Virus record (IMG/VR): IMGVR_UViG_3300009001_000021
Location: 1 to 41,578 of that record
Strand: one strand, 5' to 3'
Length of the DNA stretch: 41,578 nucleotides
Origin: a virus
Part shown: in pieces, positions 8,192 to 39,200 of the stretch
Layout of the letters: every line of letters starts with the position of its first letter
Position numbering within the stretch: position 1 is the stretch's first letter
Position numbers and translations under genes: made by a program
Notes under the pieces: model-generated
What the model was told of the DNA's origin: nothing
Databases searched by the model: none
What the model saw: only the letters and a program-made list of their open reading frames with translations

Positions 8192-9505
8192 TTATTGAAA
8201 TAAGTTAGGTGTTTGATTTGTATCAATACCACTTTCAAGTTTTTCTAATGTTGCTCTAGCATCGTCATTACCGGCTGCTAATAGTTTATTCGTTACATCT
8301 AATTTATCTTGTACGGTAGCTCTACCTTGTATTTGTTCTCCACGAGAAATTTGTTGTAATTCACGGACCGATATACCGATTGCTGCGGCCAACTTATCTC
8401 GTTCAATTACATTCATAGATTGTATATCACCTAATGAACCAATAACTGATTGAACCTCCGTGGTTAATCCTGCGATATCCCCGTCAAGTGCTAATTGTCT
8501 TGCTTTTTCTAAATTTAATTGTTTACCCGTTAGAACTTGTGCTTCAAATTGTGCGGTCAAACTTGATTCAAAATCTAATAGTTTGTCTGCTGCCCCTAAT
8601 ACTACGGATAAACTTGCTCCTACTTTTGCAGCTTCAATTGCCGCTTGAGCCATACCTTTTGCCCCGTCCATTGAGAATCTTGCAAAGGCTTCTGCATTTG
8701 AAGCTATATCACTCAATACTTTGCCAGTCGATACATTAGCAGACTTAGCCATACTGACAGCTGTTTTAGCCATATTAGTTGCAACATCAAATGAAGAACC
8801 TGTTAAGTCCATCATTACTTTGTTGAACTTAACGATTTCATTTCCTGCTACACCTGCATGTTGTGCAAATCGTTCGATGTTAACTGCATTCTTTACAGTC
8901 ATATTTTCTAAGGAACCGAACTCAGTACCGATTTGTTTTAGTGTAGATTGAATTTTACTTCCGTCCATACCGATAGCATTAAATGCTAGTTGAGAAGCTT
9001 TTAACGCTGGTAATAAGTCTTTTGCTTCTTTTCTTGAAACACCTAAATCTTCTGATAAATCAAATGAAGCTTTTCTAATTGCTCTAATTGCCAATAATAT
9101 ACCGGCAAATGCTGCAGCAATTCCTGCGGGTCCCATTAGAAATGTCGATACTGCTTTTAAACTACCACCACTTTTAATCGTATCTAAAAATACATTTTGG
9201 AATTGTTCACCTAAATCTTTTAATCCAAACGCATCAATTAACATTCCACCAATAAACGGTATACCTTTGATTGACTTTTCAATCGTGCTACCTACATCTT
9301 CAAGAGATTCTAATTGTTGCCCAATTGACTCAGCGTTTTTTTCATACAGTTTTGTTAATTCTTTTGACTTATCAATTTGTTTTTGAAGTGTTTCATTTAT
9401 AGCAGTTCCACCCTTTTCAATAAGTTTAGCTAAATCTGCCTGGTCTTTTAACTCTTTTGTAATCTCTTGCTGTAATCTTACATTATTTAAAGCTTTTTCT
9501 GCCAT
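8192..9505 (-). CDS. tail tape measure protein, 437 aa
   Basis: Sets tail length by spanning the tube lumen. The N-terminus (1-75) is a charged coiled coil. Residues about 120-147 are hydrophobic (FLMGPAGIAAAFAGILLAIR), the usual tape-measure membrane-type segment. The rest is Ala-rich helical sequence with repeated MAKTAVSMAKSA, GMAQAAIEAAKVG and ASLSVVLGAADKLL patterns typical of the TMP family. It sits downstream of the tail-chaperone pair and upstream of baseplate genes, as expected. At about 1.5 angstrom per residue it predicts a tail near 65 nm, shorter than T4 (gp29, 590 aa). An AGGAC site precedes the ATG. Confidence 0.85.
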   Translation of the reverse strand: MAEKALNNVRLQQEITKELKDQADLAKLIEKGGTAINETLQKQIDKSKELTKLYEKNAESIGQQLESLEDVGSTIEKSIKGIPFIGGMLIDAFGLKDLGEQFQNVFLDTIKSGGSLKAVSTFLMGPAGIAAAFAGILLAIRAIRKASFDLSEDLGVSRKEAKDLLPALKASQLAFNAIGMDGSKIQSTLKQIGTEFGSLENMTVKNAVNIERFAQHAGVAGNEIVKFNKVMMDLTGSSFDVATNMAKTAVSMAKSANVSTGKVLSDIASNAEAFARFSMDGAKGMAQAAIEAAKVGASLSVVLGAADKLLDFESSLTAQFEAQVLTGKQLNLEKARQLALDGDIAGLTTEVQSVIGSLGDIQSMNVIERDKLAAAIGISVRELQQISRGEQIQGRATVQDKLDVTNKLLAAGNDDARATLEKLESGIDTNQTPNLFQ

Positions 9506-9804: not shown

Positions 9805-10056
9805 TTAAGATTTTTGAAATGTTGGAGGCCCTGTTGGACTTTGATTTGATTGTGTTGATTTTTTGATTTGTTCTGCTTCTTTATTTTTAGCATCAATTAG
9901 TTTTTGAGCATAGAATCTTCTCAATGGAACTGGCATATTGTAAAGTTCGTTGTGATTAAACCCATTTCCATAATAGGCGATGTTGAAGAGTTCTTCGTGA
10001 ATAGCCGCCCTATTACTCGGCGGCTGGCCAAAAAAAGTCAATCCCGAGTGGGACAT
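9805..10056 (-). CDS. tail-assembly chaperone second frame (GT-like extension), 83 aa if independently started
   Basis: This reading frame overlaps the end of the upstream gp26-type gene by 44 bases, in the +1 frame. Its conserved part is HEELFNIAYYGNGFNHNELY and then MPVPLRRFYAQKLIDAKNKE, a helical pattern that I recall as the second tail-chaperone frame of many myoviruses. No Shine-Dalgarno site precedes the ATG at 10056, unlike most genes here. The overlap contains a run of seven T (10036-10030). Slippage by +1 or -2 there would fuse this frame to the upstream protein, giving about 325 aa (251 + 74) instead of 256. This resembles the G/GT arrangement upstream of tape-measure genes. Independent translation from 10056 cannot be excluded. 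Confidence 0.75.
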   Translation of the reverse strand: MSHSGLTFFGQPPSNRAAIHEELFNIAYYGNGFNHNELYNMPVPLRRFYAQKLIDAKNKEAEQIKKSTQSNQSPTGPPTFQKS

Positions 10057-10783
10057 CTAATGTATGTAGATTCCCTGATTGACTCGTATAGTCAAACTTC
10101 AACTCAATGTCTGGTGTGATATCATCTAAGTATTTTCTAAAAGCTCTTGTATCAAGTGCTAAGAATTCGTTATCAACAAAATTGTCTATTTCTTTTTGGT
10201 CTGTGTTTCCGTCAATAGATGTGATTTGATATTTTAATCTCGTGGTTAAACTATTTGAAACTCCTGTAAGTTTTTCAACTTTTTCATAGTCTTTCATTAT
10301 TTCATCTATTTGATTTTCATCTTTTTGTGTTAGTAATTTGAATCCAATAACTCTTTTTGAATTTGGTAATTCAAATTCAAAGTTGTTTCCATTTTCATAC
10401 AATGATTTATCAATTTCTTTGTTTTTCAACTTCGTTAAATCAACCGTATATTCTACTCGTTCACTGGTATCTGGGTCCGTTAGGATTATATCATAGTTTG
10501 CACCATATCCTAAAATACGAGTTCCTACCATTATAGCGTTCTTATCACCGATTAACATATCGTCTATTTTGACTTTCGGGTCTGCAATAACACTTTCAAG
10601 TAATCTGGTAATAACTACTCCTTGTTCTATTAGATTTGTGGAAGTTAAGATATCTTCCTCTTTTGCTGTCATATATTTGACATCGATTGTTCCGCTACGC
10701 ATAGGACTATCTTCAGGATATAATAATCCCTCTGATGGTAAAGATAGAACCTCAGTAGGAAACCCATACTGATTTTCAGCCAT
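10013..10783 (-). CDS. T4_baseplate-family (gp26-type) protein, probable tail-assembly chaperone, 256 aa
   Basis: The N-terminus LPSEGLLYPEDSPMRSGTID and then VKYMTAKEEDILTS (about 15-50), followed by KIDDMLIGDKNAIMVGTRIL (about 72-91), is the hallmark of the T4 baseplate-protein family (Pfam T4_baseplate; T4 gp26 relatives). Members act in baseplate-hub or tail-tube assembly. The gene comes after the tail tube and two-TM genes and before the tape measure, where tailed phages put their tail chaperones. AAGGAG precedes the ATG by nine bases. Its last 44 bases overlap the 9805-10056 frame and contain the T7 run, so a minority of product may be an extended fusion. The normal product ends DFFWPAAE. 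Confidence 0.85.
   Translation of the reverse strand: MAENQYGFPTEVLSLPSEGLLYPEDSPMRSGTIDVKYMTAKEEDILTSTNLIEQGVVITRLLESVIADPKVKIDDMLIGDKNAIMVGTRILGYGANYDIILTDPDTSERVEYTVDLTKLKNKEIDKSLYENGNNFEFELPNSKRVIGFKLLTQKDENQIDEIMKDYEKVEKLTGVSNSLTTRLKYQITSIDGNTDQKEIDNFVDNEFLALDTRAFRKYLDDITPDIELKFDYTSQSGNLHTLDVPLGIDFFWPAAE
10030..10036 (-). other. T7 run, candidate programmed frameshift site
   Basis: In the upstream frame the codons are GAC-TTT-TTT-TGG; in the downstream frame ACT-TTT-TTT-GGC. Moving between them needs a +1 (or -2) shift, and the homopolymer lets Phe-tRNA re-pair after either. The site lies six codons before the upstream stop. Tail-chaperone frameshifts are a known conserved feature of dsDNA phages: mostly -1, but +1 and -2 cases exist. 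A sequencing error in the homopolymer is the main alternative. Confidence 0.55.
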
Positions 10784-11049: not shown

Positions 11050-11535
11050 CTAAAACTCTAATATTGCGTAATCATATTGAAGTGTTAATGCAATATCAAC
11101 TTCTGTTGCTGTTTCCCAAGATAATTCATTAAAGTTTGCATCTGTGATGAATGCTCCTTTTAGAATCCATTGTTCAACGATTTCACCATTTGGTGATAGA
11201 AGTTTAAAAGTGATATCTTTTTTATATTCGGAAGCGTATCCGTCAACACCCGTTACCGATTCGTGGTGTAATCTAATCCACTCATTAACTGATTGTGCTC
11301 CTGATGGAACAATTGGGTCATATAGTGTGATGTTGATTGGTGCCCAAGTTGCTTTACCTTTGACATATCGTTTAACATTAATGTGGTCAAGAGTAACTGA
11401 TTCGAATGTTACCTGTGGTCTTGCCATCGTTTTGATAAGATAAGATGGAATACCATCTATTTCCATCACAAACCTATTCTTCATTTTAGGTTCAAATGGT
11501 GTAAAAAATATTTCGTTTGGGTCTAAAAATGCCAC
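11050..11535 (-). CDS. 19: tail tube protein (T4 gp19 family), 161 aa
   Basis: Forms the inner tube through which DNA passes. Conserved features: NRFVMEIDGIPSYLIKTMAR near the start, then LDHINVKRYVKGKATWAPI, ITLYDPIVPSGAQSVNEWIR, HHESVTGVDGYASEYKKD and KGAFITDANFNELSW, ending LQYDYAILEF. T4 gp19 is 163 aa, which matches. The frame is open to an ATG at 11649, but I place the start at the GTG at 11535. It has AGGAGA seven bases upstream, the encoded MAFLDPNEIFF start matches the family, and the extra 38 residues would cover the promoter region. An ATATTTAT motif lies 28 bases upstream. A divergent plus-strand promoter begins at 11637. Confidence 0.93.
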   Translation of the reverse strand: MAFLDPNEIFFTPFEPKMKNRFVMEIDGIPSYLIKTMARPQVTFESVTLDHINVKRYVKGKATWAPINITLYDPIVPSGAQSVNEWIRLHHESVTGVDGYASEYKKDITFKLLSPNGEIVEQWILKGAFITDANFNELSWETATEVDIALTLQYDYAILEF

Positions 11536-11563
11536 TTTATTTCTCCTATAATTTAACTCAGTA

Positions 11564-11571
11564 ATAAATAT
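11564..11571 (-). promoter_or_regulatory. ATATTTAT motif upstream of tail tube gene
   Basis: Minus-strand ATATTTATTA, 28 bases before the GTG start. No minus-strand gene lies upstream until the sheath stop at 12463, with a bidirectional terminator between. A promoter is therefore required here, and this is the best instance of the recurring ATA(T/C)TTAT family. Confidence 0.5.
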
Positions 11572-11636
11572 AACAAAATCAAAAAAAGTGTATGGTAAAT
11601 ATGATATAGTTTTAGAAGTTTTTTTGAAGTTTTTAC

Positions 11637-11665
11637 TTGACTTTGTCATTTTTTGTTTTTATATT
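11637..11665 (+). promoter_or_regulatory. sigma70-like promoter of the zinc-ribbon miniprotein
   Basis: TTGACT (11637-11642), 17-base spacer, TATATT (11660-11665). The ATG at 11671 begins five bases after the -10, so the transcript should start at or next to the start codon (leaderless). The sequence from the -10 through ATGATTGA is identical to that at 11824. Confidence 0.65.
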
Positions 11666-12462: not shown

Positions 12463-14850
12463 TTATTCTGGGAATGTTGCTCCTGTTGGTTGAACTGCAA
12501 AGTCTAATACAATGAACTCAGCTGTTCTTGTAGGTTGGATAAAGATTTGACCAATTAATTGGTTTCTATCTACAACATCTGGTGTGTTGTTTGATTCATC
12601 CATTACTACTCTGAATGCTGTAAGTCCTGCGTTTGCTTGAACTTCTTCCATATATGGATTTACGAGATTTAAGAATCTTTGTCTTAAAGCCGCATTGTTC
12701 TGTTCAAATACCAAGAAGTTAGAAGTTGATGCGATGAACTTTCTTAAGTTAATCAACAATCTTCTTACATTGATTCTGTCTAACGCACTTGGTTTACCTT
12801 GAAGTGTTTTCTGACCAAACACTACTACACCTTGACCTGGGAAAGTTGCGATAGGATTAATACGATTTTCGTATAAATCATCTCTTTCCAAGTTGGTTAG
12901 TCTTGTTTGTGCTTCTAATACTTCTGTTAAACCACCACGATTCAATCCTGCTGGTGCGAACCACTCTTGTCCAATTCTATCATTGTTTGCATAAACACCT
13001 GGTAGAACTACTGAAGGTGGAACCCAAGTAGGTTTGTTTTTAACTTCGTCAAGAACTTTAATCCAAGGATAGTATGTTGCTATGTAATTACTATCTAATG
13101 TTTTCACATCATTGATAGCACCCTGTATTGTTCTTCCGTATCTTGAACCATCTAAGATAAAGAAACAATCTGCTCTACCTTCGACTTTATCAATTGCGTG
13201 ATTTGTTACACTTGGATGATATTCGTGAATAACACCTGGAAGTGCTAGTAAATTAATATCAAACTCATCTGGATTTGAGATTGCGTTAATAGCTCTTTTG
13301 TAAGCTAATGAACCAGTTGTATTGGCTCCACTTAAATCAAATCCTTGTGTGTTATTTTCAACAATGTTTGTTCCAATTTTTCTTTCTTTTGCTGGATTTG
13401 AACCATCAAAACCACCTTGGAAAGGAACTGCAAACTTTAATTGTCTGTAATCTGAACCACTTAATGATAATGGATTATTACCTGATGAGTATTGTGTACC
13501 CAAAGATGAAGCATCATCATTACCAACACAATCTTCTAAACTCATTGTTATGTTATTTCCTGCTAATGCTGCTGTTGGTAGTGGTGCTAGATATTGTTGT
13601 TGGTCAACATTATTAAAGTCAAATCCATAGTAAACATTTGAGTCAAATGTTCCTCTTGAATTTTTCTGTGCTGAATCACTATTTGTACCAATAAACGAAG
13701 CACTTGGGAACGACATTGCAACGGTACTACCGCTTGGTGTTGTTAGTGTTGTTTTGTGTGGTTGTAAGACTTTATCAAATCCCATAGGAACTAAGTCTTT
13801 TGAAATTCCTGTCAAGTTTCCATAATCTGAAATGTAAATATATTTAGATTGATTAGGGTAATCACCATTGTTGGTTAATTTTCCTTGTGAATCAATTGTA
13901 GTATATTTATCACCAATTACTCTTGGTAGGAAGTTTACTGAATCCTCATCAAAATTTAGATTTTGGAAGTTTTCTAAAACTGTTCCGTCATCATTTTGAC
14001 CTGGATTATTTACAATCACTTGTAAACTAAATGAACCATAATCTGAACCGGCAACATCTACTGGTCTTTTAATATCAGCAATACCAACTCTATATTTAGA
14101 GTTCATATTTGTTCCGTGTGATATGGTGTTAACTTTAAATAAGTCGGTTCTTGCTGAACCAACTAATTGTGATTGGATTGATGGTGTTGTAGCAACTGAG
14201 TAATCAAATGAGAAGACTTCGTCACTTCCACTATTGATATATACTCTATCACTTGATTCCATCTTGTTTTGTGTGTCTTGGAAATTTGAATACACGTATA
14301 CCGATTTACTAGCATTTTGTGCATCTTCACTAAATACTTTTGTAATGTAGTTAGCTGAACTTGAATCAAATGATAATGAAAAAGCTGTTGTACTTTCGTT
14401 ATTATCTACATCAAGATTCAATGTAAATGAAGATTTGGTTCCACCGTCATCAACTGAAGCACTTGTAGCTCCTGCTAATTCAGTGTTGTCTACATCGGTT
14501 GCTCCTCTTGAAGGTTTTAATGTAGCGACAGCAAAGTGTCCTTTTGAACCACTAATACTTAATGTTACGGTGTCGTTTGCGTATCCACCCAATCCTAAAA
14601 CACGAACTATTGTTAATGTTCCTGCGTTACGAAGATATTGCTTCGCAGCAAAAGGAACATAAAAGTCTTGGTTTTCTTTACCGAAGATTGTTTCAAATTC
14701 ACCGAAGTTTCTGATGATTGTTGGAACAAATGCTGGACCCATTTCTGTTGGTCCGATTAATGCTGCTCCAATTTCACCAATACCTTGTGGTAAAAATGAT
14801 AAATCTTTTTCTCGTGTAAATACACCAGGACTGACTATTCTCTCAGCCAT
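12463..14850 (-). CDS. 18: contractile tail sheath protein (T4 gp18 family), 795 aa
   Basis: Forms the contractile sheath around the tube. The N-terminus IVSPGVFTREKDLSFLPQGI, then GAALIGPTEMGPAF and FGEFETIFG (about 5-57), is the gp18 signature. The C-terminal quarter (about 640-795) holds LTNLERDDLYENRINPIATF, GVVVFGQKTL, RINVRRLLINLRKFI and the final IFIQPTRTAEFIVLDF, which is the conserved polymerisation domain. T4 gp18 has 659 residues; the extra length lies in the variable Ser/Thr/Asn-rich middle (about 100-450), likely surface-exposed insertions. AGGAGA precedes the ATG. The upstream gap contains an inverted repeat around an ATATTTAT motif. The sheath and tube genes are separated by the plus-strand cassette. 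Confidence 0.96.
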   Translation of the reverse strand: MAERIVSPGVFTREKDLSFLPQGIGEIGAALIGPTEMGPAFVPTIIRNFGEFETIFGKENQDFYVPFAAKQYLRNAGTLTIVRVLGLGGYANDTVTLSISGSKGHFAVATLKPSRGATDVDNTELAGATSASVDDGGTKSSFTLNLDVDNNESTTAFSLSFDSSSANYITKVFSEDAQNASKSVYVYSNFQDTQNKMESSDRVYINSGSDEVFSFDYSVATTPSIQSQLVGSARTDLFKVNTISHGTNMNSKYRVGIADIKRPVDVAGSDYGSFSLQVIVNNPGQNDDGTVLENFQNLNFDEDSVNFLPRVIGDKYTTIDSQGKLTNNGDYPNQSKYIYISDYGNLTGISKDLVPMGFDKVLQPHKTTLTTPSGSTVAMSFPSASFIGTNSDSAQKNSRGTFDSNVYYGFDFNNVDQQQYLAPLPTAALAGNNITMSLEDCVGNDDASSLGTQYSSGNNPLSLSGSDYRQLKFAVPFQGGFDGSNPAKERKIGTNIVENNTQGFDLSGANTTGSLAYKRAINAISNPDEFDINLLALPGVIHEYHPSVTNHAIDKVEGRADCFFILDGSRYGRTIQGAINDVKTLDSNYIATYYPWIKVLDEVKNKPTWVPPSVVLPGVYANNDRIGQEWFAPAGLNRGGLTEVLEAQTRLTNLERDDLYENRINPIATFPGQGVVVFGQKTLQGKPSALDRINVRRLLINLRKFIASTSNFLVFEQNNAALRQRFLNLVNPYMEEVQANAGLTAFRVVMDESNNTPDVVDRNQLIGQIFIQPTRTAEFIVLDFAVQPTGATFPE

Positions 14851-17201: not shown

Positions 17202-17450
17202 TTACGCGTCGTTACTACCACTAATGGTTGTAATTTCTGCTAAAGTCACTACTAATTCAGCATGTGATGCTGAAGCTTGAGTTACCATAGCTGTGTAGGT
17301 GGTTTTTGCATCGTGTGCTCCGAGACTTTCTTGATAATCCAAGATTGTTCTTTCATTACCATCGATATCAGTCTGTGTTCTCGTGTGTTTAATATTTACT
17401 TGAGCATATCCACTTCCTGACACCGTTGCGTCTGCTACTATTCTACCCAT
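17202..17450 (-). CDS. small protein following the S74 fibre, 82 aa
   Basis: Unknown function. The sequence is beta-rich and Ala/Thr/Ser-rich (GRIVADATVSGSGYAQVNIK, later TTYTAMVTQASASHAELVVT), with no Cys or membrane segment. Its ATG lies inside the last codons of the giant fibre gene (eight-base overlap), and the ribosome site GAGGAG is part of the fibre reading frame, so the two are translationally coupled. A role in fibre assembly or a small virion protein is suggested by position only. Confidence 0.7.
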   Translation of the reverse strand: MGRIVADATVSGSGYAQVNIKHTRTQTDIDGNERTILDYQESLGAHDAKTTYTAMVTQASASHAELVVTLAEITTISGSNDA

Positions 17451-20400
17451 TTGATTTCTCCTCTAATTTGGTTATTTGTTGTTGTTGTTTTTCTATTGTT
17501 GTTTGTTGAGTTTCAACAATACCTTTTAATTCTTTGATTGATTCAATTAATAATGGAACCATTTTTTCATATTTTACTGTTAAATAATCTTCGCCAGATA
17601 TTGATTCTATTGTTCCGTCTTCATTTTTACGAGTATCAAATGGAGCTAATGTTACGGCTTCTGGTAAAATTTCTTGAACTTGTTGAGCCGATACACCGAC
17701 TTTTCTTTTTCCAGTAAGATTATCATAGTCCTCATTGTATCCAAGTTCTTTTGCTAATTCATTTGATTCATAAGTAAATCCTTCTAATGATTGAACTTTT
17801 TCAAGAGCACTTGTAATTGGTTCAAGTTTATGTTTTAGTCGTATATCTGAATAATATGCAACGACATCTGCCAACGACCTAATACTACCATCTACTAACA
17901 AGTCTGCATTACCTGAATTACTATGAATACCGAATGTTCCAGAAGCTCCACTCAACATTATATTTGCCTGATTAGCACTACCAGCAGTCCAAGAACCTTG
18001 GTCTAATTGCCATACATTTCCAGTTCCAAAATATATATTATTAAGAACATCTAAACCAGCTGAAGTAAGACGCATTCTTGTTGTTGCATCAATAATAAAA
18101 TTTTGAGCTGAAGCTTGTATTTGTATTTGGTCTGCACTATCTCCACTTCTTCTTAGGTATAAATCTGCATTGTATGAACTTACAACACCACCATTTACAT
18201 AAATCATTTGATTAAACCAGTGATTTGCTCTATCAGTAGTATAATGACAATGACTGGTGTTTTGTGGCCCTATGTGTAAATATCCACTATCAGTAGATAT
18301 TTTTACATAATTACCACTAGCAACGTGAAATTCTACGTGGTCATCATTAACAATAGTTTCTAAATAATCTGAAGCATCTGCTTTTTGATATTGTCTTACA
18401 TAGTTATCACCCATTTGCATTTTTAATATATCAGCTCCTGCTTGAGTATGCCAAAATCTTAATAGTGCAGTTCTATTAGCAGTACTTCCATCTGATAAAT
18501 ATGTTGAAATAGCTCCTGCTCTTGCTCCACCACCTTGGTCGTGTCCAAACTCTAATGTTGGCCCACTACCTGCTGCAGTTGCAGTATTCATAATGCTTAA
18601 TGTAGGATTAGATGTTTTACCAAATGTAACATTACCATCTCCACCTAAAATATGTCTTAATGCATTATCACTATAAAAATTATAATTATCAGCAGAATTA
18701 GCATCGGTATCAATGTAAAAATTCATACCCCAACCACCACCAGATAAATTCAAATTACCTGAATCTGTTTGTATAGTAGAAGCATACATTGTTCCAGTTA
18801 CTAAAGAGTTACCATCAACATCTAATCTATAGCTTGCACCTGGTACTGTTGTATCTGATTCTCCATATCCCAATCTTAAAGAATGTGCCAGTGTCATTTT
18901 ACCTAATGTCGTTATAAATGCAGCACCTTGTGCATTAGTGTGACTGCTATCTCCAAACCAAAAACCTCTATCGGCATCATTGTCCATTTGGAAAGTCATC
19001 GCATAATCACTTTGTGAACCACCAAAAGTAAACCCTGATTGCATACCTATCGCATAAGCAGAATTATTCCAAACTCTAATTTTATCTCTTGTGGAAGTAG
19101 TATTATGCCAAAATTGACCAGCACCATCTGCCATTTTAATTTTACCAGCTTGTACTAAAGTATTTGTAATGGTTTCATCAAGATTTGCAAATGCGGAAGC
19201 TTCAAAATCTATCGCCCAACCATCACTCCAATGGTCTATTGATGAACCAAAACCTACTGTTACATCTCTTACTGTAATTTGTGGATAAGACCAAGTGTCT
19301 GTAAGTTCTCCAATATACACAAGATGATTTGTACCGTCGTGTCCAAATCTTACAGCTCTTTCATAATTGGTATTGTTACTAATTTGAGTAGCACTAACAT
19401 TTACCCATTCGTTTCCACCACTACTTGGTGTTTGATATACATATCCTGAAATTTGATAAGATATTGATTCATTTGATACATAATCAAAAATATCCACCCA
19501 AAAAGTAACCATATCTGCATAAATTGCTGGAACTTTTATTTCAATAGCACCAGTATGAGTATTTGCAGATGTTCTATACTGACCACCGCCAGGATGTAAT
19601 ACATAACCACCTAAACTTGTATTACTGTTATATACTGATATTCCATTTCCAGCAGACAATTTAAGATTTCCGTCTGAATCTATTTTCATCTGTGTAGTAC
19701 CACTAATACCACCTGTAATAAAGTTTATAGGGTCTGTACCACCAGAATATAATTCTAATTCGTGTGATGCCGCTCCTATTTTTAATCCACCACTTCCATT
19801 GTCAAATATTCTTTGGTCGTTAGCAAATTGGATTCTTGTTGGTTGTGCAAATAATAAATAATTAGAGTTTAAAGTTATGTTTGTAGTATTTCCACTTCCA
19901 ACCTGAAATGTATGAGAACTTCCTCTATATATATTTTGGTTAGTTCCTCCACCAAGATGTAAATTTCCAGAACCATATATATGGTCTGTTTGAAAATATA
20001 ATGTACTACTATCGCCACTTGCTAATAATTCCATAACAGTGCCATTAGAAGTAGTGTTTTCAAATCTTGCTGCTATGTCTGTATTTCCAGTAGAAACATG
20101 CAACTTTCTTTGTGGTGATGTAGTGCCGATTCCGACATCGCCTCCAAAATGAGTATCTAAATATATCTGTAAATCATCAGTTCCTGGTCTTGACATAAGA
20201 ACTGCATCTGTTCTTGGTGCAGTAATTGTAGTTCCAGTATTATCATATCCAGCAGACATCCAAATGTAGTTATCATTACCAGAGTATAAACCTGTAAACA
20301 TTTTTGGGGAATTACTTCTTTTATAAACGGTTGCTGCCCAACCACTTGGGTCATCAATAATTAAACCATCATTCCAAGAACCGTTGTTAGCATTTGCTAT

Positions 20401-23400
20401 AGTTAAAGGGCCTGCTGGTGATGTAGTGCCGATACCGACAAAACCTGAATCATCTATTGTAAATCTATCATTAGTTCCAACTGAGCTATTTTCTGATATT
20501 AAAAGTTTATGCCCACTTGAATCTACACCAATACTAAATTGTCTTGCTGCAGCTGTTGTTGTAAAAGTTATTTGTGGGTCATCACTTCCAGCGTGTATAT
20601 CTACATAAGAACTACCACCAACATCTCTTTGGAATCTTCCAATATATTGTCCACCACCACCACCTTGTACTAAGAAAGCACCTTCACTCGCATCTTGGTT
20701 AATGTGTAGTTTAGCACTTGGGCCGGAAGTATTAATACCGACTCTATTGTTTGCTGCATCTGTAAGTAATAAATGAGCATCAGAAGTACCTTCGACTCTA
20801 AAATCAGCATCGTTTGCAGTTTCATTTACTACTAATCCATAATTCATAAATGAATTACCAGTAACATTTAAATTGCCTACAACACTTGCACCAGAAGTAT
20901 TTACATAAAATCTTTGAGTTCCACTTGTTGAATCAACTGTTGCACCAGTTCTGAAACTAAATGTATCTCCGGTGTTGTATAGTGCAATGGTAGAATCAGC
21001 TTCTCTAAATAATAATCTTGATGATATAGTGTTGTCTGCACCATCTTTATCGATTAAAATTCCATTAACTCCTGATGAAGATACATGCAAGGTAGTAGCG
21101 GGTGATGCAGTGCCGATTCCGACATTTTGAGAAGAATCAATTCTCATACTTTCAGCAGCAGATGTTCCTGTATGAAAAGCCAATGCCATACTATCATCAT
21201 ATTGAGTTTCAGTTAAAATCTTTATAACTGCTGCACCACTATAAGAATTTGTTTTATATCCTATTTCAGCTTGTGTTCTTGCACCATTAGTTGTATTAAC
21301 ACCTGTATTTGAAAATGTTAATCTTTGTCCTGATGTACTTCCACCTAAGTCTAACTTACTTGCGGGCGATGTGGTGCCGATTCCGACATTACCAGTAGTG
21401 TGAGCAATAGCTAATCTTACAGCATTACTTTGGCTTTGGTCTTCTACACCCCAAAAAGATGATGGAATATTTGAAATTGATGAACTTGCACCACCAACAC
21501 CTGCATTCCAATTATATGAAGTTCCTCTACTATATCTAATTGTAGCACCATAACTTGCGTCACCTTGAAGTCTTAAAGAAACACCATTTCCATCTGAGCC
21601 ATTTATGTGCATTAAATTTGTAGGTGTTGTAGTTCCTATGCCGACATTGCCTGATGAGTCTACTGTAACAAGTTCTCCTTCAGAATTTATATTTCCTGTA
21701 ATATGGAACTTATTGTCAGTTCCGATGTTTGTTCCATAAGAATAACTTCCATTAGTAAACCAAATACCTGAACGAGTTGATGCAGTTGAAGCATATAATT
21801 TAATTATAGTTTCTCCTGAATCTACAATGTTTAACTTTGATTCAGGTGATGTAGTGCCGATACCAACTCTCCCATTGGCTCCTTTTATTCTCATAACGTG
21901 ATTATTACTACCGTTATCATTGGCCATAAATGAAATATCTTGGTCAACTCCTGTATTTTGAATTACCAACAAACTCGTAGAAGTGTTTTGTAAATAAGAA
22001 TGTGTAGCGTGTATCATTCTTAAATCATTATTAGCACCTACGGATAAACTTTTATTATCTGCTTGAAGTCTTGTGTTTTGATGAAATAAAGTTTGTGTTG
22101 AACTACCATCTAATGTTATGTAAGGTGTATTTCCACCACTACCATCATCACATCTAAATATTAAATCTCCATCATCTGCATATTGGTCAATATAAAAATT
22201 ACCAGTAGAGTTTGTTAAGAAAGTATTAGTTCCATTGTGGAAGAACTGACCATCTCCAGCACCACCAACATCAACTGTTTTAGAATCAGGAACTCTTATA
22301 CCTAAATTAGCATAAAGTCTTGCTTCACTTCCGTCTAACGTTAGATAAGCTGTTGTTCCACCTGAACCATCATCTGATTTTAAGATAATATCTTTGTCAT
22401 CGGCCTGATTTTCAATTTCCATATCACCCGTGATGTTAACGAATTTAGCAGCTGTAGAACTATGATATAAAAGTATATTTCCTGATGCCCCGACTTTTAA
22501 TGCCTGATTCCAATTAGGTAAGTGTACATTACCGATTTCACTTGAATCTATTTTTAATGCCGTAATCGTTGAACCACCATCATTTACATTGAAATGTAAG
22601 TCTTGGTCTTGAGTTATTGTTCTGATATAGTTTACATTACCTGCGTGATAAAGTTGTAAATCTTTACCAGTTCCTATTGATAATCTCGTGTTATCAAACA
22701 CTTGGACATAATCTGTTCCACTTTCTTCAATTCTCAACATTAAAGTTCCACCAACATAATGGTCTACTACATCACTTTGTGATTCAGCTATATAAGTTCC
22801 ACTTCCATCAGTACCGGATTGGTCAAAAATAAGTTTTCCTGTCGGTGGTAATCTTAATTCACCGAATGAACCAGTTGATGAATTTGCGTTTAAAGAACCT
22901 GTAAATTGATGTGTGTCTGAAGTAGAATCACCAAATATTGTGGAACCACTTGAAAAACTTTGTGTCATATAAGTTACTGATGAACTTACGATATAATTTT
23001 GTGCCGTTAAATCTCCTTCAACAACTAAATTTCCTTGAATTTCTGTTCTTGTTGGTGGTGTTAATAATAGGTCTCCAGTACCACCGTCTAATGTTATGTA
23101 AGGTGTTATTCCACCGGAACCATCATCACTACTAACTATAATATCTCTATCATCAGCAGTATTTTGTATGTATAAATGTCCAGTAGAGTTTTGTAAATAA
23201 GTATCTGCTGTATTATGAAAGAATTGTGCGTCTCCACTACTACCAACTTGTAATTGAACATTGTCTTGCATACGAAGTTGTTTGTTTGCTCTCATTTGAC
23301 CTTCGTCACCACGAATCGATAAGTAAGTAGTTACTCCACCTGAACCATCGTCTGTTCTAAAGAAAATACTTTTGTCATCAATGGTGTTATCTATGTATAA

Positions 23401-23607
23401 ATCACCAGTTCCGTATTGTTGTATAAAACTATGACTTCCATTGTGAAACAATCTTAAATCATTATTTGTTCCAAAGTATGCAACTGCACTATCTGGAAAA
23501 TATATATCATCGTTAAATTGAGCAGGTTTATCAAATACTGTTCTTACTACACTTCCGTCTAATGTTAGATAAGCAGTTACTCCACCTGAACCATCATCAC
23601 TTCTTAA
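17443..23607 (-). CDS. giant tail fibre, C-terminal part with peptidase S74 chaperone domain (separated by frameshift)
   Basis: Receptor-binding fibre, continuing the frame broken at about 23607. It has six more copies of the fibre repeat (G-x-x-x-D-L-x-x-x-H-x-G followed by DDGSGG and LTLDGS) and seven V-G-I-G-T-x-S-P repeats (about 21870-20100). A beta-rich region follows. The C-terminal domain starts at Ser of SDIRLKHKL (codon near 17850) and runs 135 residues, with GVSAQQVQEILPEAV and a terminal Gln-rich coiled coil. The Ser and Lys of SD-x-R-L-K are the S74 autocleavage dyad, which releases the chaperone after the trimer folds. The frame is open from 23625, but no ATG or ribosome site lies near the break; the TTG at 23451 sits inside a repeat and is not a credible start. 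The whole gene would be about 2,896 aa. Confidence 0.85.
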   Translation of the reverse strand, partial: LRSDDGSGGVTAYLTLDGSVVRTVFDKPAQFNDDIYFPDSAVAYFGTNNDLRLFHNGSHSFIQQYGTGDLYIDNTIDDKSIFFRTDDGSGGVTTYLSIRGDEGQMRANKQLRMQDNVQLQVGSSGDAQFFHNTADTYLQNSTGHLYIQNTADDRDIIVSSDDGSGGITPYITLDGGTGDLLLTPPTRTEIQGNLVVEGDLTAQNYIVSSSVTYMTQSFSSGSTIFGDSTSDTHQFTGSLNANSSTGSFGELRLPPTGKLIFDQSGTDGSGTYIAESQSDVVDHYVGGTLMLRIEESGTDYVQVFDNTRLSIGTGKDLQLYHAGNVNYIRTITQDQDLHFNVNDGGSTITALKIDSSEIGNVHLPNWNQALKVGASGNILLYHSSTAAKFVNITGDMEIENQADDKDIILKSDDGSGGTTAYLTLDGSEARLYANLGIRVPDSKTVDVGGAGDGQFFHNGTNTFLTNSTGNFYIDQYADDGDLIFRCDDGSGGNTPYITLDGSSTQTLFHQNTRLQADNKSLSVGANNDLRMIHATHSYLQNTSTSLLVIQNTGVDQDISFMANDNGSNNHVMRIKGANGRVGIGTTSPESKLNIVDSGETIIKLYASTASTRSGIWFTNGSYSYGTNIGTDNKFHITGNINSEGELVTVDSSGNVGIGTTTPTNLMHINGSDGNGVSLRLQGDASYGATIRYSRGTSYNWNAGVGGASSSISNIPSSFWGVEDQSQSNAVRLAIAHTTGNVGIGTTSPASKLDLGGSTSGQRLTFSNTGVNTTNGARTQAEIGYKTNSYSGAAVIKILTETQYDDSMALAFHTGTSAAESMRIDSSQNVGIGTASPATTLHVSSSGVNGILIDKDGADNTISSRLLFREADSTIALYNTGDTFSFRTGATVDSTSGTQRFYVNTSGASVVGNLNVTGNSFMNYGLVVNETANDADFRVEGTSDAHLLLTDAANNRVGINTSGPSAKLHINQDASEGAFLVQGGGGGQYIGRFQRDVGGSSYVDIHAGSDDPQITFTTTAAARQFSIGVDSSGHKLLISENSSVGTNDRFTIDDSGFVGIGTTSPAGPLTIANANNGSWNDGLIIDDPSGWAATVYKRSNSPKMFTGLYSGNDNYIWMSAGYDNTGTTITAPRTDAVLMSRPGTDDLQIYLDTHFGGDVGIGTTSPQRKLHVSTGNTDIAARFENTTSNGTVMELLASGDSSTLYFQTDHIYGSGNLHLGGGTNQNIYRGSSHTFQVGSGNTTNITLNSNYLLFAQPTRIQFANDQRIFDNGSGGLKIGAASHELELYSGGTDPINFITGGISGTTQMKIDSDGNLKLSAGNGISVYNSNTSLGGYVLHPGGGQYRTSANTHTGAIEIKVPAIYADMVTFWVDIFDYVSNESISYQISGYVYQTPSSGGNEWVNVSATQISNNTNYERAVRFGHDGTNHLVYIGELTDTWSYPQITVRDVTVGFGSSIDHWSDGWAIDFEASAFANLDETITNTLVQAGKIKMADGAGQFWHNTTSTRDKIRVWNNSAYAIGMQSGFTFGGSQSDYAMTFQMDNDADRGFWFGDSSHTNAQGAAFITTLGKMTLAHSLRLGYGESDTTVPGASYRLDVDGNSLVTGTMYASTIQTDSGNLNLSGGGWGMNFYIDTDANSADNYNFYSDNALRHILGGDGNVTFGKTSNPTLSIMNTATAAGSGPTLEFGHDQGGGARAGAISTYLSDGSTANRTALLRFWHTQAGADILKMQMGDNYVRQYQKADASDYLETIVNDDHVEFHVASGNYVKISTDSGYLHIGPQNTSHCHYTTDRANHWFNQMIYVNGGVVSSYNADLYLRRSGDSADQIQIQASAQNFIIDATTRMRLTSAGLDVLNNIYFGTGNVWQLDQGSWTAGSANQANIMLSGASGTFGIHSNSGNADLLVDGSIRSLADVVAYYSDIRLKHKLEPITSALEKVQSLEGFTYESNELAKELGYNEDYDNLTGKRKVGVSAQQVQEILPEAVTLAPFDTRKNEDGTIESISGEDYLTVKYEKMVPLLIESIKELKGIVETQQTTIEKQQQQITKLEEKSNG

Positions 23608-33265: not shown

Positions 33266-36200
33266 TTAAGATTTATTCTTTAACTCGTTGATTTCTTTTT
33301 GTTGTTCTTCAACGATAGTTTTTAATTCTTTTACTGCTTCAATCAAAACAACTGATAATTTATCATAATCTACTGTTTTGTAAGTATTTCCGTCTAATAA
33401 TCCCATTTCTTTTTCTTTTACGATTTCAGGTATAACTTTTTCTACTTCTTGTGCGATTACGCCGATGTCGTGTTGACCTTTTCGTTTTCCTTTTGTCCAA
33501 TCAAATCTAACTCCTCGTAATTGAGATACTAAATCTAATGAATTATCAATCGTTATGATGTTTTGTTTTAATCTTTCATCAGAAGAAATTGATGCAAAAG
33601 CCACAACATCACCAGTAACTTCTAAGTCTTGATTGTTGTTTAATCTCATCTTTGGACTATGACTTGATAATGTTCCTGATACCGTTCCAACAGCAAAATC
33701 TATGTGTGCTTGATTACTTCCGGCATCACTTACATAAATTAATGCATTGTAACTAGCACCTGAGTTCATAAATCCAATACCTCTATCATTGCCGTTGTTG
33801 GTAGTTTGAATGGTAAACATCGCTCTTGAACCTGCGTCTTCAATGTGTAAAGTACTTGTTGGGTCAGTTTTTACACCAACGTTTCCACCAAAATTAGCAG
33901 TATTAGCACTTCTATCAAATACTAAATGATTAAAACTTCCATCCCAAAATGAAAAATCTTCACTTCCACCACCAGTTAATCCAAATCTCCAAAGTTCTGC
34001 ACCGCTTTCGTTTGCTAATTGTATTTGACTTCTACCACTTGATGAATTTCTTTCAATTTTTAAATATTGAGCATCACCATTCATTTTGATATCTAATATT
34101 CCATTTCCTTCAGGTGTTCCGTTGATACCAACTCTACCATCGTCATCAATCATAAATCTTTGAGTCATTGTAATAGCAGTATCGATAGTACCGAATTGAG
34201 CAGTAGCATTAAAGAACTTTAATTCATTGTCCATATATAATGCACCTCTTGTAAAGTTTCCATTATCTGCACTATTAATAAATGCTTCATCTGTTGTTGT
34301 GCTTGGTTTTACACCATATCCCCATACATTTGCACCTGCAGAATAAGACATACCCCAAGTATTTAAATAATCTTTATTAGCATCTCCATAACCAATAGCA
34401 TAAGCAATAGCACCATTAGTTTGTGAAGGATTAGATACTATACCTGGTGAAGTAGCATCTTCACATTGGACATATAGTCTTTCATAGGGAACTGTTGCTC
34501 CTATGCCGACATACCCATTTGTTCCATCTATGTATAATTTAGCTTGTGCTTTATATTCTGCTTGTCCACCACTTGCATCATATCCTACTTGCCAAGAAGC
34601 ATTATTAGCTTGATATGGATTTCCTACAAACCATTCTCCAGCAAAGTCTTCATCAGTATGAAATATACCATTACCTCTACCTTCATATCCTTGCATCCTT
34701 TGGTGTACAGTAAAAGAAGGTGCAGCACCATTATCTATGGCAACTAAATGTAATCCCGTAGCACTTCCTTGTGTATTAACTTTTATACCAGTACCAGAAG
34801 CATTATCTATTACTAAACTACCTCTACCATTTGGGTCTTCGTCATCAATATATAGAGCATAATCTCCTGCTCCTCTTGCTTCATCTGCATTAATGAATAA
34901 TCCGTGATTTGCATTACCAGATGTATCGATTTCAAATGTATGAGCAGTATCACCTCCGTTTGGCCCTACCTTGATACCTCCTGATGAGTTTATTCTCATT
35001 CTTTCAGAAGTATCAGTAGAAAAAGTCATAGCATCATTAGCATGTTCATATTGAATCATACCTCTCCAAGAGTCATTTGCACCTCTACCATCTGCAAAAG
35101 ATAAAACTCCTACACCAGATGTTCCGTCGGAATAAATCATTGCACCAGTGTAACCTGATACACTTGGTCCACCAATAATAACCTGATGTGCTGAGTTAGC
35201 GATAGCACCGGTTCCCGATTCTCCAAATTCTGCAATAGCTGCACTACCATTAGATGTTGTTGTATATTGTACTTGTAACTTACTTGTAGGATTGGTTTCT
35301 CCTATGCCGACATTACCTGTGGTATCTTTAATAACAAATCTTGTTGCTACACCACTTTCATCAATAATAAAATCTCCATTTAAAGCGTATAAATCATAAG
35401 TATTTGTAGTAGTGATTAACTTATTGTAAGCACCATAACCTGCTGCTGTTGATTCTGTTCTAAATACTGCACTACCATTAGCATAATTTCTTATACCACC
35501 ATTGACATCTAACTTGTGTGCAGGTGATACAACTCCTATACCGACATTGCCTGATGAGTCTATTCTCATTCTTTCTGTTAATGAAGGCGAACTATAACTT
35601 TCTACATTAGTATAAAATGCTAATCTTCCACCTGCTTCACTATCTTGACTTGCAGTACCATCTCCCACAACACCAATTCTTGCTTGTGGTGTAGACAATC
35701 TTGTATTACTATCCCAAATATGAAAATCTATATCAGCAGTAGAACTTGCACCTTGGTCGCCATTAGGGTCATCTGATTTAATAACTAAAACTGTATTTTG
35801 TGCAGCACCTGCATCATTAGATATTTCTAATTTAGCACCAGGTGATGTAGTGCCGATACCGACATTTTGAGAATCATCTATTCTCATAGCTTCAGAACCA
35901 CTTGTGGTGAATGCCATATAATTTGTAGAATGATTATATTCTATAATACCTTCATCTTGATTTTGTGGGTCTCCAAATTCAATTTTACCCGCATTATTAT
36001 TCGGAACAAGTAAAGTAAATCGTGCAGTTGTGTTGTTTTCAACCAATAATTGTGAATTACTTGTTGTGATACTTCCTGCACCAGCGTTTCTAACGTGTAG
36101 ATTTGCTTCTGGATTAGTTTCTCCTATGCCGACAAATCCTGATGAAGATATTTGCATTCTGATTGCATCACTTGTTCTGATGATGAAGTCTCCGTCATCT

Positions 36201-39200
36201 GCATTACCGATTTGAACTCTATTGGAATCGTCATTGTATAAATCAATAAAAGTATATGTACTATCAGTATTGAATCTTGCTGCAACATTTGATGATGTGG
36301 TTGCATCGACATGCAATGTATTTTGTGGAGCAGTATTTCCTATTCCGATACCGAGTCCATTAACTCTTACACTACCTGGTGCATAAATATTATTAGATGT
36401 TCTGCTAAATCTTATAACTTCAGTACCTGAAGCACTATTGTTATGTCTGTATAATCTAAAATCATTATTAGTAAGTCCATCATAAACCCATCTCATACCA
36501 TAAGCTAAACCATCATTTTCCACGAAGAAATGTTCAATAACACCATTATCATTCGTAGTATTGGTAACTCTTAATAAATGTCCTTCTATTTTTGGATTTG
36601 CAATATCACCACTTGAAAATACATTTAGTTCATTTTCTACTGATAATTTGTATCCAGGATTTGTGGTGCCGATTCCAACATCACCTGAAGAATTAATGGT
36701 AAGTGCATCTGAACCACCAACAGCACTTCCTGTTGCAATGTTAAAACTATTACCACTATCGTCTAATCCTACTGAAAAGTACTGATTACCTTGGTCTCTA
36801 AATGTAATTTGTGGGTCACCACTTACTGCGTGAATATATGTTTCGGCATAAGGTGATGATACTCCGACATCTCTAATGAATGATGCTATTTTTGCACCAT
36901 TACTACCACCAGTTACTTTAAAAGCAACTGCATTATCATCTTCGTTCAAGTGTAATAAGGTATCGGGTGAATTTGTGCCGATTCCAACATTTCCATCTTC
37001 TGCAATATTTAATGCTTGAATTTCACTAGCACTTGAATCATAATGTCCTAATGTTAGAACATTATCCACAACTGAACCAATAAATCCAGCATATTGTAAT
37101 GCACCTGCTGCTTCACTATTTGCATAATGTCTAAATAATAAAATTTTATCCTGACTTGTTTCTCCATTAATATAAACAGTTGTTGCCTCTGCTGATTCTG
37201 TATTGATGTCTAAATGTCCTAATGGCGATGTGGTGCCAATTCCGACTTTACCATCACTACCTCTTACAAACATATCATCATTAAGATTTATATCTACGTC
37301 TCCGCCGTCTCCAAGTTTTACATAATCTTGTGTGCCATCTTCATATAAGTCTAATAATGTTTCTCCACCTGCTGCCATTCTTACTCTATCTGTATCAAAT
37401 TTCAAATATGTGTTATCATCACCATTGTGATATAAGACAGCATTCATACCAATATCACCTTCAACATCGAGTTCATAAGTTGGTGAGTCGGTGCCGATAC
37501 CGACAAGACCTGATGAATTTATTCTCATTCTTTGAGTCAATGCACCACCAGTAGATGTATAAAAATCTAAATGACCGGCTCTACCAGCTTCACTACCATT
37601 TGTTAAATATGAAACAATTTTAGCGACCGGTGTAATTCCTGCTTGACTATGGCCAAATATTAAAGATGGCCCACTTCCGGCAGATGATAATGTATTTCTA
37701 ATTTCTAATGTAGGGTTGTTAGTACTTCCAACCATCACATCACCCGTGACATCTAACTTAATACTTGCACTTGGTTCAGTGCCAATTCCGACATTTTGAG
37801 AAGCATCTACTGCTACTGCAAAAGTCCCTGCTGTAGATATTCCTAATTTATTATCTGCAATTCTATATAATCCAGTATCACTATCATTTACTCTTAATGC
37901 AGGACTTGCTGCTGTTCCTGATAAACTTGATTGTAGTCCTGTGGAATCAATTCTTGCAATTTCAGTAGTATCTACGGATACACTACTTGTAACATTTCCT
38001 GCTAATTCAAATGCCATATATTCGCCACCTGAACTATCAGTATTTACTTCTATTCTACCTGAGTTACCATTTTGTTCAGGAATTTTACCAGTATGATTAA
38101 ATGTTACATTAGAGTTACCACCACCATCATTAATAGTTAAACCAATAGCACCACTACCTACTCCTGCTTCTATATGCGATGTTGCTTGGATTCTTGCATT
38201 CTCACCTATTGGTGTAACACCTACTCCTAATGAACTATTTTGTATAAATGTACCTGTTTCTAAGATTTTTAATCTATTTGCACTACCTATTTGAAATTGT
38301 TGTGATGTATCCTGATTAAATTCAGCAGTCTCTTTATCCATATCTAAAATAATACTTGCAGTATCTAAGTCATTGGCAGTAGTAGGTCTTGCTCTTACTT
38401 GAAAATCACCAGTACCATTATTTGTGTTGTCAATTAAAATATTGACATTGTTTACACCTGCTAAAGTAACTTGGTTTGTAACACTTGAATCTGAATCATC
38501 ATCAAGAGTTAATCTATTACTTCCATTACTACTATGCTTTAATACTCCACTAAGAGTTTGGTCACCAGTTACTGCTAATGTGCTTCCATCAAAAGTAAGA
38601 TTAGATTCTGCTTGAATTGCACTTGTTCCATTACCAGTTAATAATGTGTTTGATGTAAAAGTAGTTGCTCCGGTTCCACCTCGTGCTACTGATAAAGTTC
38701 CTGATGTTCCCGCAACAATCGGTAGACTTGTAGCATCGGATAAATCAAATGCTGGTGTCGTATCGGAACCACCCAACGAAACACTTACTCCACCATAATT
38801 AACTGATGAATTCGTAAGTGATGAATTACCAATGTTGGATAGAGTATTATTACTTGCGTTAATTGTTTTGTTGGTTAAGGTATCGGTTGAACTAATGGTT
38901 ACTAAATTGACTTCACTATCTTTTAATCCACCAATCCATCTATCTTCACTGATGTCCCATAATAATGAACCTGTTTCTGCGGTTGAGGCGTCATTTACAT
39001 AAAGTCCTCCATCTCCTGCGGCTGAACCAGCATTCAATGTTAAAATTCTATCTCCAAGACTAACTTCTGTTGAATCTATGGTAGTGGTTGTTCCTTGAAC
39101 ATCTAAATTACCAGCTACGGTTAGATTACCTTCTAAAATATCAACACCACCATCTTTATTGACTCTCATAATGTTATTATCGGATTCATCTCTAATGGTT

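Follow-up and report, generated by a model that had tools for sequence, protein, structure and literature searches.

A tail assembly chaperone (TAC) gene of the T4 gp26/gp51 type probably gives rise to two proteins, TAC-N and TAC-NC, through programmed +1 ribosomal frameshifting in the window (the whole stretch of DNA analysed, a 41,578-base virus record from IMG/VR; Table 1). The gene is a member of the T4 gp26/gp51 family (PF12322), as the TAC-N ORF matches the Pfam profile T4_baseplate (gp26/gp51) over residues 29–234 (37 bits, cut-off 24.5, 3.8e-9) and also matches phrog_150 of PHROG with 44.5 bits. An AlphaFold2 model of the TAC-N part, built with 71 homologues, has a pLDDT of 91.9. Its matches in BFVD include the SP-15 hub protein, T4-like hub assembly proteins and gp26 of Aeromonas phage 25, and a search for a PDB fold match to the same model returned none.

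The order of genes in the window is tail sheath, tail tube, TAC, a small ORF and the tape-measure-like gene, which is the position expected of a TAC pair, and the annotations of Microcystis phage Mel-JY01 and Flavobacterium phage immuto show a similar order. The product of the tape-measure-like gene is 33% identical to the immuto tape measure protein over 126 aa (E 4e-14). The first-pass annotation had considered a gp26-type protein an odd setting for a chaperone pair. This did not hold up, since the tail-tube gene lies on one side of it and the tape-measure-like gene on the other, and T4-like TAC genes have been reported before by Vladimirov, Gautam and Davidson 2022 (Virology 566:9), whose title, according to the citation in PMC12846349, names a mechanism other than frameshifting. 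The structural region of the window also contains two very large ORFs, at 17443-23451 and 33266-40861 (2002 and 2531 aa).

Table 1. Positions of the TAC gene, its putative frameshift elements and neighbouring tail genes in the window.
Feature	Coordinates	Strand	Remarks
TAC-N ("G") ORF	10013..10783	minus	frame 0, 256 aa, PF12322 / phrog_150
Second ORF	10056..9805	minus	83 aa, +1 relative to the TAC-N ORF
+1-frame C-terminal extension (TAC-C / "T" domain)	9805..10029	minus	74 aa + stop, begins GGC CAG CCG; predicted to be reached by frameshift
ATG of second ORF	10054..10056	minus	not conserved, without ribosome-binding site; judged not the start
Slippery heptamer TTT TTT T	10030..10036	minus	frame 0 GAC TTT TTT TGG
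Frame-0 stop TAA	10013..10015	minus	in hairpin loop
GGG (Gly) codon	10043..10045	minus	putative SD-like stimulator, 6 nt upstream of T run
Hairpin AGCCGCC-GAGTAATAG-GGCGGCT	10003..10025	minus	7 bp, 9-nt loop; putative stimulator
Tail sheath gene (context)	12463..14850	minus	Phage_sheath_1 1.2e-14; phrog_23 1.3e-75
Tail tube gene (context)	11050..11649	minus	phrog_4542 tail tube 7.7e-31; Pfam gp19 slightly under cut-off
Small ORF, 80 aa	9533-9775		between TAC pair and tape-measure-like gene
Tape-measure-like gene (context)	8192..9505	minus	similar to the protein annotated as tape measure in Flavobacterium phage immuto

The TAC-N ORF and the second ORF share 44 bases, and the frame-0 codons up to the stop read CTC GGG ATT GAC TTT TTT TGG CCA GCC GCC GAG TAA. 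The overlap, its T7 run and the lack of a ribosome site for the second frame had already been described in the first-pass annotation with exact coordinates. Its claim that a +1 or a -2 slip would give a 325-aa fusion holds for the +1 step, taken after the second TTT; a -2 step would yield 326 aa, with one more Phe. A T run alone is not unusual, as TTTTTTTGG occurs once in the window against 1.6 occurrences expected. What exceeds chance is the presence of the T run, or of close variants, at the same codon position in all 178 loci that we compared, together with a conserved +1 domain.

The comparison drew on scans of IMG/VR: 178 loci (176 distinct) have a complete extension, and some 55 additional distinct loci bring the total to about 230 distinct loci. 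The +1 domain is retained in the 178 relatives at identities down to about 40%. Nearly all IMG/VR loci encode F-F/L-W in frame 0, followed by a +1 domain of 60–100 aa with the pattern Y/HGnGG...vYnMP..lR.fy, so that, as in a TAC pair, the overlapping second frame is conserved as a domain. Within the window clade, the extension has a pN/pS of 0.16 when read in the +1 frame, compared to 1.3 and 2.2 for the remaining frames, and the +1-frame domain is thus under selection. The +1 frame is also open past the frame-0 stop in the isolates Mel-JY01, immuto, RM378, GXN1, SP-15 and LIS04 and in the metagenomic LR756508; the domain is recognisably similar in all of these except RM378, where the similarity is less clear. 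LR756511 is the sole exception among the inspected phage relatives. In this jumbo phage (595-kb genome), the sequence past the PF12322 gene may encode an extension that has an ATG of its own and is read in the -1 frame (MDEQFFFLYHLHVGRKDFLQY...). At the loci compared, the -1 frame mostly runs into a stop in the space of a few dozen codons (frequently after about 10), and the lambda-type arrangement, in which a -1 slip heptamer precedes an extension open in that frame, was not found. A scan of genome contigs yielded just one contig, from a metagenome-assembled bacterium, and no homologue was found in the 80–130 kb stretch of P-SSM2. Chance and sequencing error are ruled out as explanations, since the site is kept across hundreds of contigs. 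All sequence checks proposed in the first pass turned out in support of its G/GT-like reading: overlap, T run and the +1 relation of the two frames are conserved, and the ATG of the second ORF is not.

The second domain could in principle be the product of an independent gene, an 83-aa protein started at the ATG of the second ORF or reached by coupled re-initiation. The window does contain this ATG, and a TTG start is assigned to the second frame of Mel-JY01 in GenBank; in two relatives (L180 and L185), the domain truly is encoded apart, by an ORF that begins at an ATG of its own. Across the family, the start is not conserved: the +1 frame lacks any ATG, GTG or TTG ahead of the frame-0 stop in 60/178 loci, and in 25/178 the +1 frame is closed by a stop no more than 6 nt from the first slip codon, leaving no room for a start upstream of the domain. 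These stops also mean that the frame must change at the slip site or in the next few codons. SD-like sequences precede 20/118 candidate +1-frame starts, compared to 67/108 frame-0 starts, and none was found before the ATG in the window. We therefore rejected a separate gene beginning at this ATG, and two independent genes are a very improbable arrangement here.

The few relatives in which the second domain is separate or split off have a decayed slip site as well. L180 and L185/L281 carry the C-terminal chaperone domain as an ATG-started ORF in another frame and could serve as natural controls that lack the frameshift; the slip site in L180 and L185 has decayed to TTC TTG TAT or TTC CTT TGG. 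In L301, a GIY-YIG-like ORF (MVGIYKIISPSNKIYIGQSVNIEKRW...) directly follows the TAC-N stop and the slip site now reads TTC TTC TGG, possibly as the result of a homing-endonuclease insertion that split the chaperone gene.

The slip site itself is tightly constrained. In the 178 loci it is TTT TTT TGG (134), TTT CTT TGG (27), TTC TTT TGG (7), TTT CTA TGG (3), CTT TTT TGG (3), TTT TTT TAC (2), TTT CTT TAC (1) or TTT TTT CAC (1), that is, always TTT, TTC or CTT followed by TTT, CTT or CTA before TGG, TAC or CAC. The cultured relatives Mel-JY01 and immuto have TTTTTTTGG and TTTCTTTGG, respectively. The T run is held at seven. A codon ending in T never precedes TTT TTT in 134 distinct loci, where codon usage predicts 59 such cases; Asp at this position is encoded by GAC in 32/32 cases (Asp codons elsewhere end in T in 74%) and Asn by AAC in 12/12. 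A run of eight T was found in one of about 230 distinct loci (L304, outside the 134-locus count), and no homologue has a run of six that would join both ORFs in one frame. A T before the T7 run would create the -1 heptamer U UUU UUU; that such a T is avoided suggests slippage by the ribosome, in a direction under selection.

The same data bear on transcriptional slippage, in which RNA polymerase would drop one U or add two at the T7 run and the mRNA would be read straight through. The T7 run of the window is a homopolymer, which speaks for such slippage, but 41 of the 178 sites lack a full T7 run (TTTCTTT, TTCTTTT, TTTCTAT, CTTTTTT) and one more reads TTT TTT C. Moreover, a run fixed at exactly seven is short for slippage, and the hairpin, being downstream of the run, is still untranscribed while the polymerase is on it. 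Broken homopolymers, fixed run length and downstream hairpin together largely rule out this mechanism, to which we assign very little probability, and programmed frameshifting as such is very likely on the comparative evidence.

The variants also point to the direction of the slip. Re-pairing of the P-site tRNA one base forward would be possible in every observed variant, at the first or second codon (e.g., UUU to UUU or UUC). Re-pairing from CUU to UUU is the step used in RF2. An A-site stop codon of the RF2 or PSA type was not found: the A-site codon is TGG, rarely TAC or CAC, and the frame-0 stop follows 5–8 codons beyond the first slip codon. That UGG is neither a stop nor an obviously rare codon, unlike the situation in RF2 or PSA, is a counterpoint to the +1 assignment. 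According to PMC10885494, UUU is one of the P-site codons most prone to a +1 slip. Upstream of the run, the Gly codon at the position marked in Table 1 is GGG in 93/129 loci, compared to 219/2395 (9%) elsewhere in the gene, and may be an SD-like helper. In three Gram-positive phages (L005, L007 and L008), the overlap also contains NCC CGA (CCC CGA, GCC CGA, ACC CGA) a few codons past TTT, a putative alternative +1-prone site.

A second candidate stimulator lies downstream. In the window clade, the T7 run is followed by GGCC and then by the hairpin, at a spacing of 4–5 nt (4 in the window). The folding energy of the 45-nt stretch is -15.8 kcal/mol (z -2.0). The six core pairs are formed in 31/31 distinct clade sequences, and two pairs vary with compensation, one being C-G in 22, G-C in 8 and G-U in 1 sequence and another C-G in 27 and U-A in 4 (n=31); the compensatory double changes occupy 13 cells across these two pairs, where cells count sequences and not independent events. 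The covariation score is 0.190, compared to 0.062 for shuffled alignments (0/500) and at most 0.036 when the pairing is slid. The hairpin is present in 40/40 distinct window-clade loci and in about 0% of control windows. A DNA search with the 33-nt element returned 111 stretches, and all of the newly fetched loci that were checked (77/77) proved to be the chaperone gene; a search for an Rfam family returned none. A different GC hairpin, also with compensated variation, is located 4–6 nt past the T7 run in seven other loci (L229, L258, L259, L268, L339, L341 and L354), two more loci have a five-pair hairpin farther on, and the remaining loci have none. A general hairpin requirement is thus ruled out, as hairpins are limited to the window clade and one other small group. 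The absence of the hairpin from most sister clades is a counterpoint to the proposed +1 mechanism.

Hairpins so placed occur more typically with backward (-1/-2) slips, so a -2 shift fits nearly as well in the window itself. In such a shift, tRNA-Phe on the second UUU in the P site would slip back two bases, as in phage Mu, to give the 326-aa product. The U7 run of the window permits this step, backward slips are usually assisted by a hairpin such as the one 4–5 nt downstream, and -2 frameshifting is known for the Mu chaperone (PMC5009743). The sister sites, which occupy the same codon of the same gene, argue against it: TTC TTT TGG (7 loci) and the GXN1 site would leave the middle base of the codon mispaired, and TTT CTA the wobble base, whereas +1 re-pairing is open to every observed site. 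Thus, of the two directions proposed in the first pass, +1 is better supported across the family and the window alone fits either. We regard +1 as quite likely the direction taken, on the strength of these comparisons, and -2 as unlikely. The two predict different junction peptides, GIDFFGQPPSNR (+1) and GIDFFFGQPPSNR (-2), which are 147 Da apart.

The occurrence, efficiency and direction of slippage and the chaperone function of the products are parts of the +1 mechanism that we infer for this phage. Most ribosomes would terminate at the frame-0 TAA and release TAC-N (256 aa). On a minority, at GAC UUU UUU UGG, the peptidyl-tRNA-Phe would re-pair one base forward, from UUU to UUU; GGC would then enter the A site, and reading in the +1 frame would yield TAC-NC (325 aa). 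The slip would be tuned by the GC hairpin 4–5 nt downstream in the window clade, and possibly by the upstream GGG. By analogy with lambda, TAC-N would coat the tape measure protein, and the C-terminal domain of TAC-NC would recruit tail-tube subunits.

T4 gp26 and gp51 both match PF12322, and comparison with phrog_150 suggests how the two parts of the fused protein relate to them. The phrog_150 match ends at position 235 for gp26, 280 for gp51 and 282 for the fused window protein, which aligns with the profile end to end. Shuffling the extension lowers the phrog_150 score of the window clade from 52 to 41.4 bits (a loss of 10.6), and the match then ends at 235. In other clades the extension adds just 0–1.5 bits, so that a clear gp51-type score is confined to the window clade. 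A weak placement of the extension on the gp51 C-terminus was obtained with hhalign. An HMM of gp51 only gave no useful score against the extension; the proposed homology therefore rests on phrog_150, and we consider a common origin of the +1 domain and the gp51 C-terminus likely but not firm.

Taken together, these comparisons suggest a tentative picture, to which we give slightly less than even chances, of a large group of uncultured T4-type myoviruses that use a +1 slip on a strict seven-U site, recruited a 3′ hairpin of the backward type in at least two lineages and have a two-gene chaperone in other branches. If true, this would be a hairpin-assisted forward frameshift, which is unusual in bacteria. 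The range of slip sites and hairpins that occurs in nature, decayed cases included, could serve the study of the mechanism and evolution of forward frameshifting in bacteria. The annotation of many environmental viruses would also be corrected, as the C-terminal domain is now missed or called a separate hypothetical gene.

Tail-chaperone frameshifting itself is already known. In the open-access literature searched, we found no description of a +1 TTT TTT TGG site, a strict T7 run or a covarying hairpin in PF12322 chaperones. Lambda G/GT, P2, HK97 and others likewise encode a short and a frameshifted longer protein between the tail-tube and tape-measure genes. The lambda-type shift is -1, whereas the window combines a probable +1 shift with another Pfam family (PF12322) and, in one clade, a covarying 3′ hairpin. 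G-T frameshifting has been reviewed as widespread except in T4, with shifts of -1, -2 (Mu) or +1 (very likely HSTV-2), and in Mu and the halovirus HSTV-2 the C-terminal domain of the TAC is likewise in the +1 frame (PMC5009743). The TAC genes of Vandenendeviridae/Andersonviridae, also myoviruses, likewise combine a poly-T slip motif, placed where TAC-N ends, with an open extension, but use GTTTTT, a -1 shift and another motif phase (PMC12846349). Bacillus phage 0305phi8-36 has equivalents of G and GT, but as two genes without a frameshift (PMC2147016). T4 belongs to the same PF12322 / phrog_150 family, the end of gp26 corresponding roughly to the end of TAC-N and gp51 being longer; it differs in having two separate genes and no +1 extension past gp26. 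The T4-like tail assembly chaperones described by Vladimirov and colleagues are reportedly gp26 and gp51, and their abstract is said to state that several T4-like groups have retained frameshifting and that T4 relies on separate genes. Our comparison would support the view that gp26 and gp51 of T4, long listed as an exception, are the two-gene form of lambda G/GT.
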